A model generated the notes under the pieces. That model saw only the letters and a list, made by a program, of their open reading frames with translations, was not told the DNA's origin and did no database searches. From Sphingobacterium sp. ML3W (lineage in GTDB: Bacteria; Bacteroidota; Bacteroidia; Sphingobacteriales; Sphingobacteriaceae), in the NCBI RefSeq assembly GCF_029542085.1, contig NZ_CP107036.1, forward strand, positions 2,232,001-2,296,000: 64,000 nucleotides of DNA. The letters run 5' to 3'. Below, piece after piece: positions 25,795 to 44,104 of this stretch. Each line of letters starts with the position of its first letter. Position 1 is the first letter of the stretch. Both the position numbers and the translations under genes were made by a program.

Positions 25795-26772
25795 CTAACG
25801 CCTTTTTTTCGCAAAAGGATTAAAAGAAAGTCCGACGTTCACATAAAAAGATGGATCTGCAGAAGCTTCCCAAACATAATTATTTTGACGTTCACTTTTT
25901 TCAAATACTCTTGACCTTGGAATGGTCTTCATACCTGATTTGACTGTTGCAATAAATGATCTTCCCAAATTATGTTCGTAGGTCAATCCTGAATTAATCT
26001 CCATCTGATTAAGGGTATAAACCTTATCTGACCCCAAAAAGTCATAGAGATAAAATATCGTAGTATTGAGGTCCGTGCCCAGTGAAAGTCGACCATTCCG
26101 CAACATCGTTTTACGTACAAAAGCGCCTTTTGGTAATAACACATCTACCATCCAACCATCAGCATACTGTTGCTTATAGGTAAAGGTGGGAATAACAGGA
26201 ACAATAGCCCCCGGATCCACAAAACCCAACAATCCGATTGTCACTTGTACATCCTTCGACGCCTTTAATACTAAAGTTCCAGTCAACATGCCCCGCACCC
26301 GTTCAATCCCCTTTTCACTTCCATCCGTCATGATACTGGCCGAATAAATAGCCATTTTACCAAATAACTTTGAGAAGTAAGAGAAATTAAGCGATTCATA
26401 ATGGTAATGGAAATCCTTTGAACGCATTTTTAAAGGTTGTGCGCTTAAATCCGATTCTTGTAGATTCAATGTGGTATACTGATATCCAAGGCTAGTCCCC
26501 AAAGCCCAGTTACGCCGGTTTAAAAAATTGACATTTAAACTCCCCCCAGCCTGATGGAATGATTCCACCCTACCTTGGGTGCTGGCAGCCCCCTTAGCGT
26601 TAGCTGAATATTTGTAGCCGCTATTGTATTCATAACTTAGATTCAGTACTCTCGCTGCGGGAAATTTGTCAGCAACAATGGCCTGTACTTTTTGGGGAAT
26701 ACTGTCTTTTGTCTGTGCGGAAGCACTGCATATCAGGGCAAAGCTCCCAAACAACACGAAACTCTTTTTCAT
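25795..26772 (-). CDS. DUF6268 family outer-membrane beta-barrel-like protein
   Basis: A 325-residue protein with a signal peptide (MKKSFVLFGSFALICSASA-Q). It has alternating hydrophobic strands with aromatic ends (NWALGTSLGYQYTTLNL, DFHYHYESLNFSYFSKL, MEINSGLTYEHNLG, FYVNVGLSFNPFAKK), typical of a small outer-membrane barrel; it matches what I know of DUF6268 proteins from Bacteroidota. Function unknown. It is divergent from the LytS/LytTR pair and carries matching tandem GTATAAAA repeats at its own promoter, so it is a likely direct target of that system. Confidence 0.72.
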   Translation of the reverse strand: MKKSFVLFGSFALICSASAQTKDSIPQKVQAIVADKFPAARVLNLSYEYNSGYKYSANAKGAASTQGRVESFHQAGGSLNVNFLNRRNWALGTSLGYQYTTLNLQESDLSAQPLKMRSKDFHYHYESLNFSYFSKLFGKMAIYSASIMTDGSEKGIERVRGMLTGTLVLKASKDVQVTIGLLGFVDPGAIVPVIPTFTYKQQYADGWMVDVLLPKGAFVRKTMLRNGRLSLGTDLNTTIFYLYDFLGSDKVYTLNQMEINSGLTYEHNLGRSFIATVKSGMKTIPRSRVFEKSERQNNYVWEASADPSFYVNVGLSFNPFAKKRR

Positions 26773-26865: not shown

Positions 26866-27047
26866 CAAGAATAGATCAATTGGGTACGCCCATTTATTTT
26901 TTTATACAAAAGGGTCAATATTTTATACAAAAACAAGCGCTGTTAAAACGGTTCCTCCCCAGCCTAATTACTGAATTTACTTTAGTATAAAAAAAAGCGG
27001 TCTTCGTATAAAAGAAAGCCATTTTGAAACAAAAAAAATTACTTTTG
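26866..27047. promoter_or_regulatory. Divergent promoters with two tandem LytTR-type operator pairs
   Basis: Toward the plus-strand kinase gene: GTATAAAAAAAAGC at 26985 and GTATAAAAGAAAGC at 27006 (21-bp period), then -7 TACTTTTG at 27040. Toward DUF6268 on the minus strand: TTTTGTATAAAA twice (plus coordinates 26921-26932 and 26900-26911, also 21-bp period), then TATTCTTG at 26873-26866. In both directions the G of the proximal GTATAAAA lies exactly 34 bp before the first base of the -7 element, and no proper -33 TTTG is present. LytTR regulators are known to bind tandem repeats about two helical turns apart, so activation by the adjacent regulator is likely. Confidence 0.75.
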
Positions 27048-27076: not shown

Positions 27077-28138
27077 ATGCAAGACTGCAACAATCGTATT
27101 ATTTTACGCTACTTAACGGAAAAGAAGTTCAGGCATTTACGACATGGCCTGTTTTTGGTTGGCCTGCTTATTCTTTTTGCCAATGCCAATACAAATAACC
27201 AATTTCTGGGTAACTATAAAACCTACTTCTCTTTGGCACTCTGGACGGTTTTCGTGGCCATGTTTTATATCAATATGTATGTGTTGATCCCGCAGTATTT
27301 TTTCAAGGGAAAATATGAAATCTATACCATCTTGCTTATTCTGCTGGTGACAGCGAGCCTACTCGTGGTCATGCAAATTGCGATATATATTTTTAGTATC
27401 CATATCCCGACGATCGAAAGACAACGAACCAATACAATGGGTTTTGTCAGCGGTTTATTTATCTGTATTCCCATTATCTTGACCACCACCACTTTTAAGC
27501 TCTTTAAGCGTTGGATCGAGGATAATAAACGTATTTCAGATCTAAAAAACCTGGCGTTGACAACGGAGTTAAATGCGTTAAAGAATCAGATTCAGCCACA
27601 TTTTTTGTTTAATATGCTCAACAATGTGAAGGCATTAATTCGGAAAGACCCCAGTATGGCCACCGAGGTTATTATCAAACTTTCCGATTTTTTGCGCTAT
27701 CAGCTCTATGAAAACGATACAGATAAAACGCTTTTAAAATCCGAAATAAACTTTATTTTCAATTTTCTAAAACTTGAGGAAATACGTCGGGATAACTTGA
27801 GAACGTCATTGTCCTGCACGGCGGAATTAGAAAGGCAAAGTATTTTCCTGCCGCCACATCTTTTTACTGCCTTTATCGAGAACGCGATCAAACATAGCGT
27901 GAACTTACGTGACGAGCATACGTTTATTGCCATTCATTTTACGCAGACAGATGAACAACTTTGTTTCGAATGTGAAAATTCGATCGATCCAGATCTTTCG
28001 AATACCCGTTCTAAGTATGGTGGACTGGGATTAGTCAATGCCAAACGACGGCTGGATTTGCTGTATGGTGATAATTACGAACTTACAATATCAAAAAATG
28101 ACCTGCTGTATCAGGTAAAATTAAAAATTCCATTATGA
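27077..28138 (+). CDS. LytS-type sensor histidine kinase
   Basis: A 353-residue inner-membrane kinase. About four helices lie within residues 20-155, with almost no periplasmic sensor domain. The His_kinase domain follows, with the phosphoacceptor in NQIQPHFLFNMLNNVK, then an HATPase domain (FTAFIENAIKHSV and YGGLGLVNAKRRLDLLYG). It should phosphorylate the LytTR regulator encoded next, with which it overlaps by 4 nt (ATGA). The signal is unknown; membrane or envelope state is common for the family. Its promoter carries tandem GTATAAAA repeats, implying autoregulation. Confidence 0.9.
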   Translation: MQDCNNRIILRYLTEKKFRHLRHGLFLVGLLILFANANTNNQFLGNYKTYFSLALWTVFVAMFYINMYVLIPQYFFKGKYEIYTILLILLVTASLLVVMQIAIYIFSIHIPTIERQRTNTMGFVSGLFICIPIILTTTTFKLFKRWIEDNKRISDLKNLALTTELNALKNQIQPHFLFNMLNNVKALIRKDPSMATEVIIKLSDFLRYQLYENDTDKTLLKSEINFIFNFLKLEEIRRDNLRTSLSCTAELERQSIFLPPHLFTAFIENAIKHSVNLRDEHTFIAIHFTQTDEQLCFECENSIDPDLSNTRSKYGGLGLVNAKRRLDLLYGDNYELTISKNDLLYQVKLKIPL

Positions 28139-28848
28139 ATTGTATCATTGTAGATGATGAACCCTTAGCAAGGGAAGAAATGAGAAATCTGGTCGAAGAA
28201 ATTTCAGCTATAGAAATTATGGGTGAGTTTTCCAATGCCCTATCTGCTATGGAATATCTTGCGACCACATCTGTTGATCTCATTTTTCTCGATATCGAGA
28301 TGCCTACTGTCAATGGATTGGATTTTGCACAATCCTTACCTAAGGATGTGCTGGTGATACTGACGACAGCCTATACACAATATGCCTTGAGGGGTTTTGA
28401 ACTGGATGCACTCGACTACCTCCTTAAACCTATCAAAAAAGATCGCTTGGCCAAGGCAATCGATAAAGCGCTGACCTATAAAAATCTGCTCAATTTAAAG
28501 GAAAATCAAAGCACCTTTGAAGATGCGAATGAAGATGCTGTATTTATCAAATCGGATCGAAAATACTACAAGATCTTATTTGGCGATATTCGATTTATTG
28601 AGGCACTCAAAGATTATGTTGTTATTTATACGCGCACTAATAAACTTATTACGGCAATGAATCTAAAAACAATGCATCAAAAACTACCAGCCCATATATT
28701 TGTTCGGGTTAGCAAATCCTATTTGATCAATTTGTCTTTTATTGATTCTTTTGACAACCATACGATATACATTGACAAGTTCGAGATCCCGATTGGCGAG
28801 ATTTATCGCGAGCCGTTTTTTAAGCAATATACAGGCGGGCTATTGTAA
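28135..28848 (+). CDS. LytTR family response regulator
   Basis: A 237-residue cytoplasmic regulator. The receiver domain (1-115) has the acidic pair IVDDEP, the phosphoacceptor Asp in LIFLDIEMPTVNG, TTAYTQYAL and the conserved Lys in YLLKPIKK. The C-terminal LytTR DNA-binding domain (about 140-237) starts DAVFIKSDRKYYKILFGDI and contains HIFVRVSKSYLINLSFI. Its start overlaps the kinase stop. Likely binding sites are the 21-bp-spaced repeats at 26900-27019. Confidence 0.92.
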   Translation: MNCIIVDDEPLAREEMRNLVEEISAIEIMGEFSNALSAMEYLATTSVDLIFLDIEMPTVNGLDFAQSLPKDVLVILTTAYTQYALRGFELDALDYLLKPIKKDRLAKAIDKALTYKNLLNLKENQSTFEDANEDAVFIKSDRKYYKILFGDIRFIEALKDYVVIYTRTNKLITAMNLKTMHQKLPAHIFVRVSKSYLINLSFIDSFDNHTIYIDKFEIPIGEIYREPFFKQYTGGLL

Positions 28849-28876: not shown

Positions 28877-29116
28877 TTAGGCCAATACAAAGCGATCTAG
28901 AAAATCTACTTTTATACCATGCTTATGCAGCAAAGCTGTCAGTAGATCAACGGAACATTCTTCTGTTTCTACCCGAAATATAGCGTCTTCGTCATCCAGA
29001 TCCAAGGTCGCCGACTGTATCTGTGGCAGGTGGAGCTTTAACAACTGCATCAGGAACGTCTTCTTCTCTTTTGTTCGCACAGAGCTTTTAAAAATTAATA
29101 TCTGCTTTGCTTTCAT
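28877..29116 (-). CDS. Small HMA-like protein without metal motif (copy A)
   Basis: 79 residues, no signal peptide or membrane segment. The pattern suggests the beta-alpha-beta-beta-alpha-beta fold of heavy-metal-associated domains (ILIFKSSV, a helix, then IQSATLDLDDEDAIFRVE, a helix, then GIKVDFLD), but the CxxC metal site is absent. The P-x-I...LDLDD stretch is shared with the small proteins at 30192 and 45558, forming a three-member set in this window. It lies between the LytTR regulator (convergent) and the methionine aminopeptidase (divergent). Function unknown; ligand binding or protein interaction is possible. Confidence 0.65.
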   Translation of the reverse strand: MKAKQILIFKSSVRTKEKKTFLMQLLKLHLPQIQSATLDLDDEDAIFRVETEECSVDLLTALLHKHGIKVDFLDRFVLA

Positions 29117-29343
29117 TTTGTAAATTTAAAATTGTATCCACCTTCTTCTCGGTTTATATTTATCCGGGATTTTCACAAATCTATTATTTCAGGCTTTCAC
29201 TGGCTGGGATTTTATACGAAAGCAGGCGTTTATTATACCAAAGGTCTGAGCCAGATCGCCCCCCTACTTTTCTTTATCTGATTATCTATTTTTTTTAAGA
29301 CCTTTGTATATCTTTAATTGAACAAGCAAATACAAAAAGCAGG

Positions 29344-30753: not shown

Positions 30754-32181
30754 TTAGAGCCATCCGCCTCCCAAGGCACGGTAAAGGGATGTTATGGCAT
30801 TAATTTTTTGTGCTTTCACTGTAGCCTGATCCAATTCGGCCTGCAGCCTATTGGTCTGTGCGACGATCACTTCCAGATAAGTTGCCTCATTAAATTTATA
30901 AAGCAGCATTGCATTTTGAACCAGCTTGTCCGAACGCTCTACCTGCAAGTTGGATGTCTCCAGTTGTTCCCCCAGTTTATCAATCTGAATCAGTGCATCA
31001 GACACTTCACCAACGGCTTTTAACATGGTCTGTTTGAAATTCAATTCCATTTGGTCCTTTGCAATTTTTGACTGCTCCAAACGTGTCTTTAATTGTCTGC
31101 CGTTCAGAATGGGCTGTACAATTGTCCCGGTTGCAGCGGCAAACAGTGACCCCGGTAGATTGAACCAATTATTTGCTTTAAATGCATTTAACCCTCCCTG
31201 TGCAGTGATATTTAAATTTGGATACATACTTGCTCGTGCCACGTGTATCGTTGCCAGGCTCCGCCGGATATCTAATTCGCTACTGCGCAGATCCGGCCGA
31301 TAGCTCAACAGGTTTGCAGGGACACCCAGTGAGAGATTTGCCGACGACTCCACCTGATCCAATCGCATGATCCTTTTTACTGGCCCCGGCACTTCCCCAA
31401 CCAAAATACTTAAAGCATTTTCCTGCACCTGAATCCCAGCCTCTAAGGCTGGAATCCGTTTGGCAATCTGATCCCGTGTCACTTCCTGCTGTTGTACCGA
31501 CAAGATATTTGCCATCCCCAATTCGACCTGTTTGTTAAGGATAAATAAGGTGCTATCTGCAAATGCTAAATTGCGCTGCGATATTTCCAGCTGCCGATCC
31601 AACAGCAGCAGGTTGTAGTAGCCTTGAACAACCTCAGCGACCAAACGTGTTTTGATCGCGCGGACAGCTTCCTGAGTTTTGAGAAGATCCACCAAACTCT
31701 CCTGCTTTTGTCCATTCAATTTACCCCAAATATCAGCCTCCCAAGAAATCTGAATTGAGGAGGTATAATCCATGGTATATTTTTGGCCCATAAATTGACT
31801 GGCCATCATACCGTTCATACTGTTGCCCGAAGGACGGTTAATTCCCACATTAGCAAGATTCGCATTCACAAGTGGCACATTCAGCCACTTGGATTGCTTA
31901 TACCCTTCTGAAGCAAATTCAATCTGCTTTAGGGCAACTTTCAAATCATTATTTTTCTTTAATGCGCTATCCAGTAGCGCAACGAGCATCTCATCTTTAA
32001 AAAAATCACGATAGGAGATCTTCGCGATACTACTATCAGCTTCATGCTCGTCCTGATTTCGGAAATGATCAATCGGTTTAATTTCCGTTCCGGTATAGTG
32101 TGGTACACGGCAGGCATTCACCCCTATTACCGTTGTCAGAAAGACTACACTATACCAGCAATTTCTTTTTATCTGTTTCAT
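30754..32181 (-). CDS. RND efflux outer-membrane factor (TolC/NodT type)
   Basis: A 475-residue outer-membrane lipoprotein-type channel. The N-terminus has a hydrophobic signal ending VIGVNACRVP, with a plausible lipid-attachment Cys. Paired OEP repeats include ISWEADIWGKLNGQK, ARASMYPNLNITAQGG and LYKFNEATYLEVIVAQTN. The protein forms the trimeric exit duct for the pump encoded upstream (16 nt). It is the third gene of the MFP-RND-OMF operon. Confidence 0.9.
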   Translation of the reverse strand: MKQIKRNCWYSVVFLTTVIGVNACRVPHYTGTEIKPIDHFRNQDEHEADSSIAKISYRDFFKDEMLVALLDSALKKNNDLKVALKQIEFASEGYKQSKWLNVPLVNANLANVGINRPSGNSMNGMMASQFMGQKYTMDYTSSIQISWEADIWGKLNGQKQESLVDLLKTQEAVRAIKTRLVAEVVQGYYNLLLLDRQLEISQRNLAFADSTLFILNKQVELGMANILSVQQQEVTRDQIAKRIPALEAGIQVQENALSILVGEVPGPVKRIMRLDQVESSANLSLGVPANLLSYRPDLRSSELDIRRSLATIHVARASMYPNLNITAQGGLNAFKANNWFNLPGSLFAAATGTIVQPILNGRQLKTRLEQSKIAKDQMELNFKQTMLKAVGEVSDALIQIDKLGEQLETSNLQVERSDKLVQNAMLLYKFNEATYLEVIVAQTNRLQAELDQATVKAQKINAITSLYRALGGGWL

Positions 32182-32197
32182 TTTATCTGATCATTAA

Positions 32198-35100
32198 TTA
32201 GTAGTCCCACTCGCTTTCATCCAACTCGCGTCCATTCAATCGTTCGTGGAAGTACTGAAATACCACAAAGAGTACAGGTGTAAGGAATATCCCCAATACC
32301 GTACCCACCAGCATGCCGAAAATAGCGGCATAACCAATGGAATGATTCCCCATTGCCGAAGGTCCCACGACAAAAACGAGTGGCACGATCCCCGTAATAA
32401 AAGCCAATGAAGTCATTAAAATAGGTCTTAGCCGTGCTTTTGCACCTTCTACCGCGGCAGCAATCAAACTTTTCCCCGCTTTCCGACGCTGACTCGAAAA
32501 TTCTACAATCAATATCCCATTTTTTGCCAATAGCCCAATGAGCATCACCATTGCGATCTGTACATAAATATTGTTTGCTATCCCAGCCATACCAATTCCC
32601 ATAAATACCCCCGAAAGTCCCACCGGAATGGACAGCAATACGGAAAATGGTAATATGTAGCTTTCATATTGAGCAGATAACAAGAAGTAAACAAATACAA
32701 TACAGAGCACAAAAATGACTGTCGTTTGCGATGTCGCCGTACTTTCTTCACGACTCATGCCCTTATAATCGAAGGTATATCCTGGTGGAAGCAGCTGTTT
32801 GGCCACCTCCTGTATGGCTGACATGGCTTGCCCGGTACTATACCCCGGAGCCGGCATTACAGTAAGGTTTGACGCGTTGAATAGGTTGAACCGCTCTACA
32901 ACCTCGGGTCCGGTAACAGGTTGAACCCGCACCAACGTACTGATCGGAATCATTTCTTGTCGGCTATTTTTCACGAAAACCCCTTGTAAGGACTGTTCGT
33001 TGGTTCTGGTTTCTGCCGTAGCCTGAACCAGTACGCGATAATATTTGCCAAAACGATTGAAGTCCGAAGCCTGTATACTGCCATAGTATCCCTGCATAAC
33101 GCCGAGTACATCACTAACGGCTACGCCAAGCTGTGCTGCCTTCGCTTCATCTACCACTACCTCATATTGGGGGTAGGAAACATCAAATGTGGTAAAGGCC
33201 ATAGCAATCTCCGGCCGCTGCATCAAAGCGCCCATCATGCCATAAGATATATTGCCTAGCTTCTGTAATTCCGCATTCGTTCGGTCCTGTAGAACCAGTT
33301 CCATTCCACTCGAATTACCAAACCCATCTACCGTAGGTGTATTTAAAACTAGAAAGTTGGCTCGCTTATCTTGTCCTAGTATCCCCTGTAACTCTCCCAT
33401 AACGGCCCCAAGATTACTCACTTTGCCTCTTTCTTTTTCAGCTTTCAGGCGAATAAAGAACGTACCGGCAGCAGATGACATTGCTCCAGTGAACAGGCTT
33501 AACCCATTCACGGAGATTACTTCGCGAACAGCAGGATGAGCCATTAACTTGTTTTCAGTATCTGACATCAATACTGTTGTCCGGTCTTTTGATGTTCCAG
33601 CGGCCAAATTGGCGGTAACAATGATAAATGACTGATCCTCATCAGGGATAAAGCCTTTTGGTGTATTCATCGTGTACCAGGCAAACAATCCGCCAAACAC
33701 TGCCAAAAGCGAAAATGCGATCCACTTGCGTTTGATCATGATTAGAATTGCCTTTCCATAGCGAAACGTAAGTTTATCAAAAGCGGCATTAAATCCGGTG
33801 AAAAAGCGCTCCTTGAATGTAGCCTTATGATTTTCGTCGGAATGGGCTGCATGAGATTTCAAAAGGATTGCACATAAAGCTGGGCTAAGTGTCAAGGCAT
33901 TCACCGCTGAGATGACAATCGCGATAGCCAATGTCAGCGCAAATTGTTGATAAAATAAACCTGTAGAACCGTCCATAAATGCGACCGGTACAAACACAGC
34001 AGACATCACCAAGGTAATCGAAACAATAGCACCCGATATTTCCCCCATAGCTGACATCGTAGCCGCTTTGGCATTTAGTTTCCGTCGTTCCATTTTGGCG
34101 TGTACGGCCTCTACAACAACAATGGCGTCATCCACGACTATACCAATTGCGAGGACAAGGGCGAAAAGCGTCAGTATATTGATCGAAAACCCAAATATTT
34201 TCATGAAGAAAAATGTCCCTACAATTGATACAGGTACAGCAATGGCCGGAATTAAGGTAGAACGGAAATCTTGTAAAAAGATAAAGACGACGATAAATAC
34301 CAAAATAAAAGCTTCAATCAAGGTTTTGATGACCTGGTCAATTGACTGATCCAGCGATTCCTTGGTTGCATAAGGTATCTTATATTCCATGGTTCCCGGG
34401 AAAGACTTTTCCAATTCTTCCATTCGCTTTTGTAATGCAATTTGCACCTCATTGGCATTCGATCCACTCATCTGAAAAATGGCCATGGTAACGGCAGGTT
34501 TCTTATTATAGTTGGATGCTACGGTATAGCTATAAGCCGCAAATTCAACCTTGGCAACATCTTTCAGTCGTAATACCGAACCATCATTTTGGGCCCTGAT
34601 AACAATATTTTCGTATTGCTGAGGTTCGGTGAATTTCCCTTTATAACGCATCACATATTCCTTTACCTCGGTACTCTGTTCACCGAACCGACCGGGAGCG
34701 GCTTCCAGGTTTTGGGACTGTATGGCACGTGATACATCACCAGGTGTCAAGTTATATGTATTGAGTTTGCTGGGGTCCAACCATACACGCATCGCGTAAT
34801 CTTTATTGCCATATACCATCGCGTCCCCTACTCCTTTGATACGCTTAAGTTCGGGTACTACGTTGATCTTACTGTAGTTTTCCAGGAAAAGGTCATCCAT
34901 TGTACCATCTTTGCTGGTTAAGGTGACCATCGCGATCATACTATTTTGACGTTTTAAGGTCGTGATCCCGCTTTGAATAACTTCTGCAGGCAACTGGTTG
35001 GTAACCTGGGCTACGCGGTTCTGGACATTGATGGCGGCTTGATCCGGATCTGTTCCCAATTTGAAGATTACGGTAATATTTAATGTTCCATCATTACTTG

Positions 35101-35344
35101 CTGTCGATGAAATATAATCCATATTCTCGACACCATTGATAGCATTTTCAATGGGTGGTGCGACTGACCGTGCAATTGTTTCGGCATTTGCTCCCGGATA
35201 CACAGCTGTCACCATAACAGTAGGTGGTGCAATATCCGGAAATTTGGTAATGGGTAAGCTGAGCATACCGACCACACCAAGAATGACCAATAAGACAGAA
35301 ATCACGGTGGCCAATACTGGTCGTTTAATTATTTTTTTTAACAT
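32198..35344 (-). CDS. RND multidrug efflux transporter (HAE-1/AcrB family)
   Basis: A 1048-residue inner-membrane proton/drug antiporter, the normal length. Seen: N-terminal helix (RPVLATVISVLLVILGVVG), NVQNRVAQVTNQLP porter segment, GIVVDDAIVVVEAV in helix 4 with the proton-relay Asp pair, FLQDFRSTLIPAIAVP, and GLLAKNGILIVEF in helix 10 (relay Lys). It forms the pump trimer with the periplasmic adaptor (12 nt upstream) and the outer-membrane factor (16 nt downstream). Likely substrates are hydrophobic drugs or antibiotics; not determinable here. Confidence 0.95.
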   Translation of the reverse strand: MLKKIIKRPVLATVISVLLVILGVVGMLSLPITKFPDIAPPTVMVTAVYPGANAETIARSVAPPIENAINGVENMDYISSTASNDGTLNITVIFKLGTDPDQAAINVQNRVAQVTNQLPAEVIQSGITTLKRQNSMIAMVTLTSKDGTMDDLFLENYSKINVVPELKRIKGVGDAMVYGNKDYAMRVWLDPSKLNTYNLTPGDVSRAIQSQNLEAAPGRFGEQSTEVKEYVMRYKGKFTEPQQYENIVIRAQNDGSVLRLKDVAKVEFAAYSYTVASNYNKKPAVTMAIFQMSGSNANEVQIALQKRMEELEKSFPGTMEYKIPYATKESLDQSIDQVIKTLIEAFILVFIVVFIFLQDFRSTLIPAIAVPVSIVGTFFFMKIFGFSINILTLFALVLAIGIVVDDAIVVVEAVHAKMERRKLNAKAATMSAMGEISGAIVSITLVMSAVFVPVAFMDGSTGLFYQQFALTLAIAIVISAVNALTLSPALCAILLKSHAAHSDENHKATFKERFFTGFNAAFDKLTFRYGKAILIMIKRKWIAFSLLAVFGGLFAWYTMNTPKGFIPDEDQSFIIVTANLAAGTSKDRTTVLMSDTENKLMAHPAVREVISVNGLSLFTGAMSSAAGTFFIRLKAEKERGKVSNLGAVMGELQGILGQDKRANFLVLNTPTVDGFGNSSGMELVLQDRTNAELQKLGNISYGMMGALMQRPEIAMAFTTFDVSYPQYEVVVDEAKAAQLGVAVSDVLGVMQGYYGSIQASDFNRFGKYYRVLVQATAETRTNEQSLQGVFVKNSRQEMIPISTLVRVQPVTGPEVVERFNLFNASNLTVMPAPGYSTGQAMSAIQEVAKQLLPPGYTFDYKGMSREESTATSQTTVIFVLCIVFVYFLLSAQYESYILPFSVLLSIPVGLSGVFMGIGMAGIANNIYVQIAMVMLIGLLAKNGILIVEFSSQRRKAGKSLIAAAVEGAKARLRPILMTSLAFITGIVPLVFVVGPSAMGNHSIGYAAIFGMLVGTVLGIFLTPVLFVVFQYFHERLNGRELDESEWDY

Positions 35345-43378: not shown

Positions 43379-44104
43379 CTACTTTTGGAAATACAGCAGA
43401 AGCTCCCGCCGGTAAGTCGACCCAATCGGCAATTTCTCCCCAGAATCTAGCTCGGCCGAACCACCTGAAATTTTACTGACACGCTCCAGTGAGACAATAT
43501 ATGATTTATGTATTCGCATAAAAAGATCTTTGTCTAACTTTTGTTCCATTTCAGCTGTTGTTAGCGAACTCACAAAGGATCCTGATGTGGTGAAAATCTT
43601 AACATAATTGCCCCAGCTTTGGATATATATGATGTCTTTACACATAATCCTAACAAAGTCGCCATCCACTTTGACTACAACAGAGGAGGTTGCCGTGGTG
43701 GCAAGCACTACAGGATGATCCAATACCGTAGGTTTGACTGAGGGATATCTGGAGAAAACGTTATCAATCGCTGACATAAACCGCCTGATATCAAAGGGTT
43801 TCACCAGGTAATCGACCGCTCTATATTCGTAACTTTCCAAAGCATATTCTTTATAAGCTGTTGTTAAAATTACCAAGGGAGGATTAGACAGCGCTCTTAA
43901 CATCTCCAAGCCATTCAATCCGGGCATATTGATATCCAGAAAAATAAGATCAACTTCATGATCATACATATAATCCATTGCTTCAACTGGATGATAGAAT
44001 GAAGCTTTTAGATCCAATTTTTTGATATCCTTGATATAATGATGAAGGACTAGATGTGCCCCTTCTTCATCATCAACCACAATGCAGCTCAAACGCTCAT
44101 TCAT
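43379..44104 (-). CDS. LytTR family response regulator (second system)
   Basis: 241 residues. Receiver domain with IVVDDEEGAH, phosphoacceptor in LIFLDINMPGLNG, TTAYKEYALESYE and YLVKPFD. The C-terminal LytTR domain spans about 140-241 (VVVKVDGDFVRIMCKDIIYI, LFMRIHKSYIVSLERV). It overlaps its kinase gene by 8 nt. Targets unknown; the 21-bp-spaced repeats found for the first system were not seen upstream of this pair. Confidence 0.92.
   Translation of the reverse strand: MNERLSCIVVDDEEGAHLVLHHYIKDIKKLDLKASFYHPVEAMDYMYDHEVDLIFLDINMPGLNGLEMLRALSNPPLVILTTAYKEYALESYEYRAVDYLVKPFDIRRFMSAIDNVFSRYPSVKPTVLDHPVVLATTATSSVVVKVDGDFVRIMCKDIIYIQSWGNYVKIFTTSGSFVSSLTTAEMEQKLDKDLFMRIHKSYIVSLERVSKISGGSAELDSGEKLPIGSTYRRELLLYFQK

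Follow-up and report, generated by a model that had tools for sequence, protein, structure and literature searches.

In Staphylococcus aureus, the agr promoter P2 drives agrA's own operon. Its product AgrA is a LytTR regulator that acts on direct repeats upstream of P2 and P3 in the agr intergenic region (PMC4227749). The LytTR Regulatory Systems (LRS) HdrRM and BrsRM of Streptococcus mutans have tandem direct repeats, mostly of 9 bp with 11-13 bp between them, just upstream of the promoter; both are positively autoregulated, and repeat-dependent binding was shown for HdrR (PMC6193735). Two LRS-like examples from Bacteroides, with 11-bp repeats 11 bp apart, are described in the same paper; they are the only Bacteroidota LytTR operators in the literature consulted, and the genome analysed here has 17 LytTR domains. 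In gamma-proteobacteria, the BtsS/BtsR and YpdA/YpdB systems answer to pyruvate and regulate genes for transporters (PMC5552118). In Flavobacterium johnsoniae coevolved with Burkholderia thailandensis, FJOH_RS09515/RS09520 were mutated across five lines, the LytTR regulator in lines 2 and 5 and the histidine kinase (the next locus tag) in lines 1, 3 and 4 (PMC10197871, Table 2); this pair is a possible orthologue of the system described below. Titles and abstracts of the PMC library were searched, and no paper describing the motif or regulon reported below was found.

The locus lies in a stretch of 64,000 nucleotides from Sphingobacterium sp. ML3W (contig NZ_CP107036.1, positions 2,232,001 to 2,296,000), the whole of which is called the window. 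In Bacteroidetes promoters, the consensus of the -7 element is TAnnTTTG and that of the -33 element is TTTG. The features, numbered by position in the window, are the following.

25795..26772, minus strand: predicted outer-membrane beta-barrel protein, 325 aa, called DUF6268 in an earlier note on this DNA
26866..26873, minus strand: -7 element TATTCTTG of the outer-membrane-gene promoter, with one mismatch to TAnnTTTG; the proximal half-site starts 34 bp away
26900..26932, minus strand: tandem candidate LytTR operator, outer-membrane-gene side; half-sites at 26928-26921 and 26907-26900, both GTATAAAA
26981..27013, plus strand: tandem candidate LytTR operator, kinase-operon side; TTTA-GTATAAAA (26985-26992) and TTC-GTATAAAA (27006-27013)
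27040..27047, plus strand: -7 element TACTTTTG of the kinase promoter; the proximal half-site starts 34 bp away, and there is no proper -33 box
27077..28138, plus strand: LytS-type histidine kinase, 353 aa, His_kinase PF06580 (E 2e-22)
28135..28848, plus strand: LytTR response regulator, 237 aa, Response_reg (1e-22) and LytTR (1.1e-15)
28877..29116, minus strand: 79-aa protein with a predicted HMA (ferredoxin-like) fold and no CxxC, the third putative target
29176..29183, minus strand: -7 element of the third promoter, TAGATTTG; the proximal half-site starts at 29217, once more exactly 34 bp away
29210..29242, minus strand: third tandem candidate operator; GTATAATA (29238-29231) and GTATAAAA (29217-29210), with one mismatch in the pair

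The kinase and regulator genes overlap by 4 bp, and the locus has the parts of a LytS/LytTR two-component system, namely a kinase domain, receiver and LytTR domains, and tandem repeats about two helical turns apart. The phospho-acceptor region PHFLFN of the kinase is invariant across 21 aligned relatives, as is D53 of the regulator in 21 alignment rows. Among NCBIfam models, the regulator matches BtsR best, at 138.7 bits and below the cut-off of 246 bits. An LRS has no kinase and consists of a LytTR gene with a gene for a membrane inhibitor behind it; here the regulator gene comes after a histidine kinase gene, both in the window and in 19 of the 20 loci L031-L050 (for the 20th, L040, the script gave no order), so the window system is not an LRS. 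It is very probable that this LytS/LytTR system controls its own promoter, with binding at the tandem operator replacing the -33 element and activating its own operon, the barrel gene and the HMA-fold gene.

The earlier note had described four copies of GTATAAAA in the divergent region (26866-27047), two per strand, with a 21-bp period and 34 bp to the -7 element in both directions, and direct reading found this to be exact. It had also reported that neither divergent promoter has a proper -33, which was borne out, since none of the three window promoters has a TTTG that ends 16-23 bp before its -7 element; at the kinase promoter, a TTTG is present just 13 bp upstream of the -7 element. The two divergent promoters stand as probable targets, and the third site, which has the same geometry, had been overlooked; it lies 2.2 kb from the divergent region and faces the 79-aa gene directly behind the regulator gene. 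A second LytTR domain is found in the same window at 43397-43654 on the minus strand (G000:C1:2275397-2275654), adjoining a reading frame of kinase size (L278), and no tandem operator of the 21-bp/34-bp geometry is present at that locus.

Mismatch-free pairs of GTATAAAA at 21 bp occur twice in the 6.55-Mb genome, and these are the two divergent pairs. A fuller pattern, with two flanking T's per half-site and a -7 element at 34 bp, gave five matches at up to three mismatches in the own genome and none in the control. A search independent of the motif, for 21-bp tandem repeats of whatever sequence with a -7 element equally far off, recovered the three window sites and the site of a paralogous system described below; one mismatch was allowed in the -7 element, and an exact -7 misses the window barrel site and the paralogous site. 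The same search found none at the 15 other LytTR loci of the genome and two in 300 shuffled loci.

Looser counts were less telling. GTATAAAA alone occurs nine times in the window, with 4.2 expected, and nine was reached in 6 of 100 shuffles; the octamer is only mildly over-represented, and its abundance was dropped as evidence. Pairs at up to two mismatches numbered 56 in the own genome and 69 for the reversed-pattern control, so loose matches carry no meaning, and the two-mismatch scans of the own genome were discarded. Both counts would fit repeats that arose from chance or from curvature in A-rich promoter DNA and have no cognate protein, but this is scarcely credible given that the fuller patterns have zero control matches, that conservation holds at 39-47% kinase identity, and that the flanking TT is retained though it lies outside the selection of the motif profile.

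Each of the 8 close Sphingobacterium loci retrieved with the kinase (L031-L038; kinases 88-99% identical to the window kinase) has all three sites, and 24 of 24 distances are 34 bp. Twelve distant orthologous loci (L039-L050), with kinases at the 39-47% identity given above, come from Mucilaginibacter, Pedobacter, Flavobacterium, Paenimyroides and others; counting a pair of up to two mismatches with a -7 element of up to one mismatch 30-37 bp on, at least one site is present in 11 of them (kinase side 8, divergent side 9). The exception is L043, where the pairs facing either way are degenerate. Under this rule the kinase-side site is absent in L043, L046, L047 and L048, and two further clear orthologues are without a kinase-side site, L163 (G058) and L176 (the second copy in G089). 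With up to one mismatch per half-site, the upstream regions hold 16 pairs at 21 bp in the eight close loci, 8 in the twelve distant loci, and 0 in eight remoter loci (L051-L058) and at 50 weaker kinase relatives (L059-L108).

A family set was made of 27 kinases at E<=1e-80 from 151 family genomes, 19 of which had a match. At up to two mismatches, 18 of the 27 kinases have a 21-bp pair, followed by spacings of 30 bp (5 kinases) and 19 bp (3); at up to three mismatches the counts are 20 at 21 bp, 6 at 30 bp and 9 at 19 bp. All those 20, one of which (in G089) appears doubtful, are among the 22 kinases of at least 354 bits, and the five weakest kinases have none. The set is not wholly independent, as the search profile A1 contained 10 of the 27 kinases, nine of these found via the motif; among the kinases outside A1, 11 of 17 have a 21-bp pair (up to two mismatches). 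A Flavobacterium-centred sample of 150 genomes supplied 10 new kinases, of which 4 have a 21-bp pair when the kinase strand alone is counted and 5 when both strands are, and other spacings reach up to 3 (up to two mismatches); this is weaker than in the family set.

Whole-pattern scans were also run. At up to two mismatches, 42 places were found in 34 of the 151 family genomes and 10 places in the control; many of the 42 are probably chance. The 18 named genomes that were picked for holding the kinase have 38 places and 5 for the control, and 17 of them have a match, F. rivuli alone being without one. At up to one mismatch, a class sample gave five places in 3 of 395 genomes and none in the control; three of these are the window's own, one, in G062, adjoins a related system of the same family, and the single match outside the family (380 genomes; G383) is perhaps chance. 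With one outside-family match in the class sample, the case for wide conservation depends on loci to which the kinase led. The earlier note had let its reading depend on conservation upstream of orthologues, and the repeats are kept at most of those tested, more weakly in the Flavobacterium sample. It is directly established that the sequence geometry exists, that it is conserved and that, among the loci tested, it is confined to this sub-family, and the comparative support as a whole appears good, not uniform.

A different DNA-binding protein, for instance another of the 17 LytTR proteins, could be the cognate regulator, and the number of the latter leaves room for such an assignment; this is very improbable, as the operator tracks relatives of this kinase-regulator pair across genera, the 15 other LytTR loci have no such tandem operator, the 50 weaker kinase relatives have no 21-bp pair, and the sole paralogous system with a similar operator has a different base before TATAA. 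The adjacent LytTR regulator is the preferred candidate.

A motif profile was built from 56 pairs (up to two mismatches) in 25 hand-picked sequences, 42 of the pairs having a -7 element (up to one mismatch) at 33-36 bp. Exact TAnnTTTG, sought 20-59 bp from the 56 pairs, occurs only at 33 bp (2), 34 bp (17), 35 bp (5) and 36 bp (1). Conservation of GTATAA in the 56-pair profile is partly by construction, as the pairs were selected on GTATAA; the TT before it, outside the selection, is present in at least 41 of 42 sites at each of the four columns. No column between the operator and the -7 element of the 42-site profile shows a -33 box. The same regulator might bind and mainly repress, or switch between repression and activation with phosphorylation, and the sequence contains nothing that speaks against repression outright. 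This is improbable, however, because the -7 element is preceded by the entire operator, each of the three promoters is without a proper -33 box and by itself would be weak, the spacing from operator to -7 element is tightly held, and S. mutans LytTR systems of this layout activate (PMC6193735).

Activation by the adjacent regulator would proceed as follows. The membrane kinase would phosphorylate the LytTR regulator at the conserved Asp53, and two regulator molecules would bind head to tail on TTnGTATAAWA-N10-TTnGTATAAWA, whose 21-bp period, about two turns, would place them on the same face of the DNA, with the -7 element TAnnTTTG 34 bp beyond the start of the proximal GTATAAWA. Once bound, the two molecules would substitute for the missing -33 box and recruit RNA polymerase. 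Activation of the own kinase-regulator operon would form a positive feedback loop, the divergent outer-membrane barrel gene and the downstream small HMA-fold gene would be co-activated, and in relatives an RND efflux operon may be activated as well. Binding by this regulator, activation, phosphorylation dependence and a physiological role are what we infer from the sequence. The earlier note had proposed LytTR regulation of the own operon and of a divergent outer-membrane gene; the repeats it relied on are conserved, its gene name DUF6268 had to be given up, and binding and activation keep this conditional standing.

The 325-aa product of the divergent gene has an N-terminus that resembles a signal peptide (by eye) and was modelled as a beta-barrel (pLDDT 83.4). 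It is assigned to the barrel class only, because Foldseek placed the model against many barrels at a TM of about 0.2-0.4. Pfam gave no match up to E 10 and NCBIfam none close to its cut-off, and the single match to PF19783 (DUF6268) that exceeds the cut-off in this genome lies away from the window locus, at C1:2816133-2816981; a DUF6268 identity of the barrel gene was therefore ruled out. That over-cutoff DUF6268 gene is tail to tail with another LytTR regulator gene (G000:C1:2815831-2816981; L276), and the pairing of a LytTR gene with a barrel gene may recur outside the present system.

In HMA domains, CxxC is the metal-binding motif. For the 79-aa protein, AlphaFold2 predicted a beta-alpha-beta-beta-alpha-beta HMA fold (pLDDT 92.9), and the best Foldseek match is the copper chaperone CCS (E 1.1e-4, TMq 0.82). 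No Pfam match was found up to E 10, and CxxC is absent in 10 of 10 aligned members.

The operator in relatives precedes kinase operons, and in L143 and L147 it stands before operons of an unnamed protein of about 150 aa, the barrel and the HMA-like protein. The HMA-like gene, where it is separated from the barrel gene, comes with a site to itself, and the operator stands before it alone (window, L144 and L049). TolC-MFP-RND operons carry the operator separately in L143 and L144 and behind the barrel gene in L152 and L221 (Mucilaginibacter). The RND gene of L144 is split into two reading frames (L144:9565-12689), and some targets occur a single time, among them the gene that follows the L150 site. 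Because the same operator precedes the same genes, the protein of about 150 aa and the TolC-MFP-RND operon in relatives, the output of the system is probably a transport or stress response of the envelope; the combination of a barrel, a metal-free HMA-fold protein and the relatives' RND pump suggests an envelope export response.

The best homologue of that pump in the own genome is 44% identical (C1:2147659-2150721); no site was listed near it, and the RND pump was dropped as a target in this genome and kept as a target in relatives only. A TolC-like gene and an RND-type gene are also found near the system, at 30754-35344 on the minus strand of the window. The RND protein there is 28% identical to the operator-bearing pump of relatives, and no site precedes this RND-type gene in the window.

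In a second branch of related systems, the operator stands before TonB-dependent receptor and lipoprotein genes (L225, L228, L219); the targets in L228, the one locus of that branch so checked, are a TonB receptor and DUF4249 by Pfam. The own genome has a paralogous kinase-regulator pair (G000:C1:615021-616833), tail to tail with a TonB receptor-DUF4249 pair, and the operator that stands before the latter is as follows.

G000:C1:620181-620246 (L249:10244), minus strand: paralogous operator with CTATAAWA half-sites TTCCTATAATA and TTGCTATAAAA and -7 element TATTTTCG; 21-bp period, 34 bp to the -7 element

This operator was found in all five Sphingobacterium genomes searched, and none such was seen at the paralogous kinase's own promoter. 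The 21-bp period and the 34-bp distance are the same as in the window system; the TonB receptor-DUF4249 target differs, and so does the base before TATAA, which is C at the paralogous site and G at the three window sites. Over the 42 profile sites, this base is G in 37 distal and 38 proximal half-sites and otherwise A or C. The LytTR contact motif, taken at the equivalent of AgrA residues 196-202 (PMC4227749), is FVRINKS in 4 of 4 aligned paralogues and FxRVSKS in 16 of 19 window-type regulators, and differs in both outgroups. Our hypothesis is that the operator base before TATAA and the regulator contact residue co-vary. It is conceivable, and put forward here tentatively, that these systems form an old Bacteroidota LytS/LytTR sub-family in which the operator grammar (21-bp tandem half-sites, about 34 bp to the -7 element, no -33) is fixed and the targets are swapped (barrel, metal-free HMA protein and RND pump in one, TonB receptor and DUF4249 lipoprotein in the other), with the paralogous circuits insulated by the one base before TATAA (G or C) matched to FVRVSKS or FVRINKS. 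The window and paralogous systems are a natural pair for working out base recognition by LytTR domains. Comparison alone sufficed to bring out the motif, the promoter geometry and a coherent set of targets, so that gel shifts, deletions and reporters can address them directly, and the operator grammar gives annotators a rule for seeking targets.

Set against the described systems, the mechanism is of a known kind, and the regulon itself was not met in the titles and abstracts of the PMC library search. The layout of tandem repeats is like that of HdrRM and BrsRM, as is autoregulation, which is here proposed; those systems pair the LytTR regulator with a membrane inhibitor, whereas the present one pairs it with a histidine kinase. 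The operator is closer to the promoter than in the Bacteroides examples, where the start of the proximal repeat is 45 bp from the -7 element (values of Table 3 added, PMC6193735); with the GTAT cores aligned, we infer a distance of about 41 bp there and 34 bp here. A LytS-type kinase with a LytTR regulator and operator motifs kept across genera are common to BtsS/BtsR, YpdA/YpdB and the present system. The likeness to AgrA lies in a LytTR regulator with direct repeats upstream of promoters; in the agr system, the promoter-proximal repeats are centred near -60, and the contact motif is FFRCHNS (PMC4227749), whereas it is FVRVSKS here.
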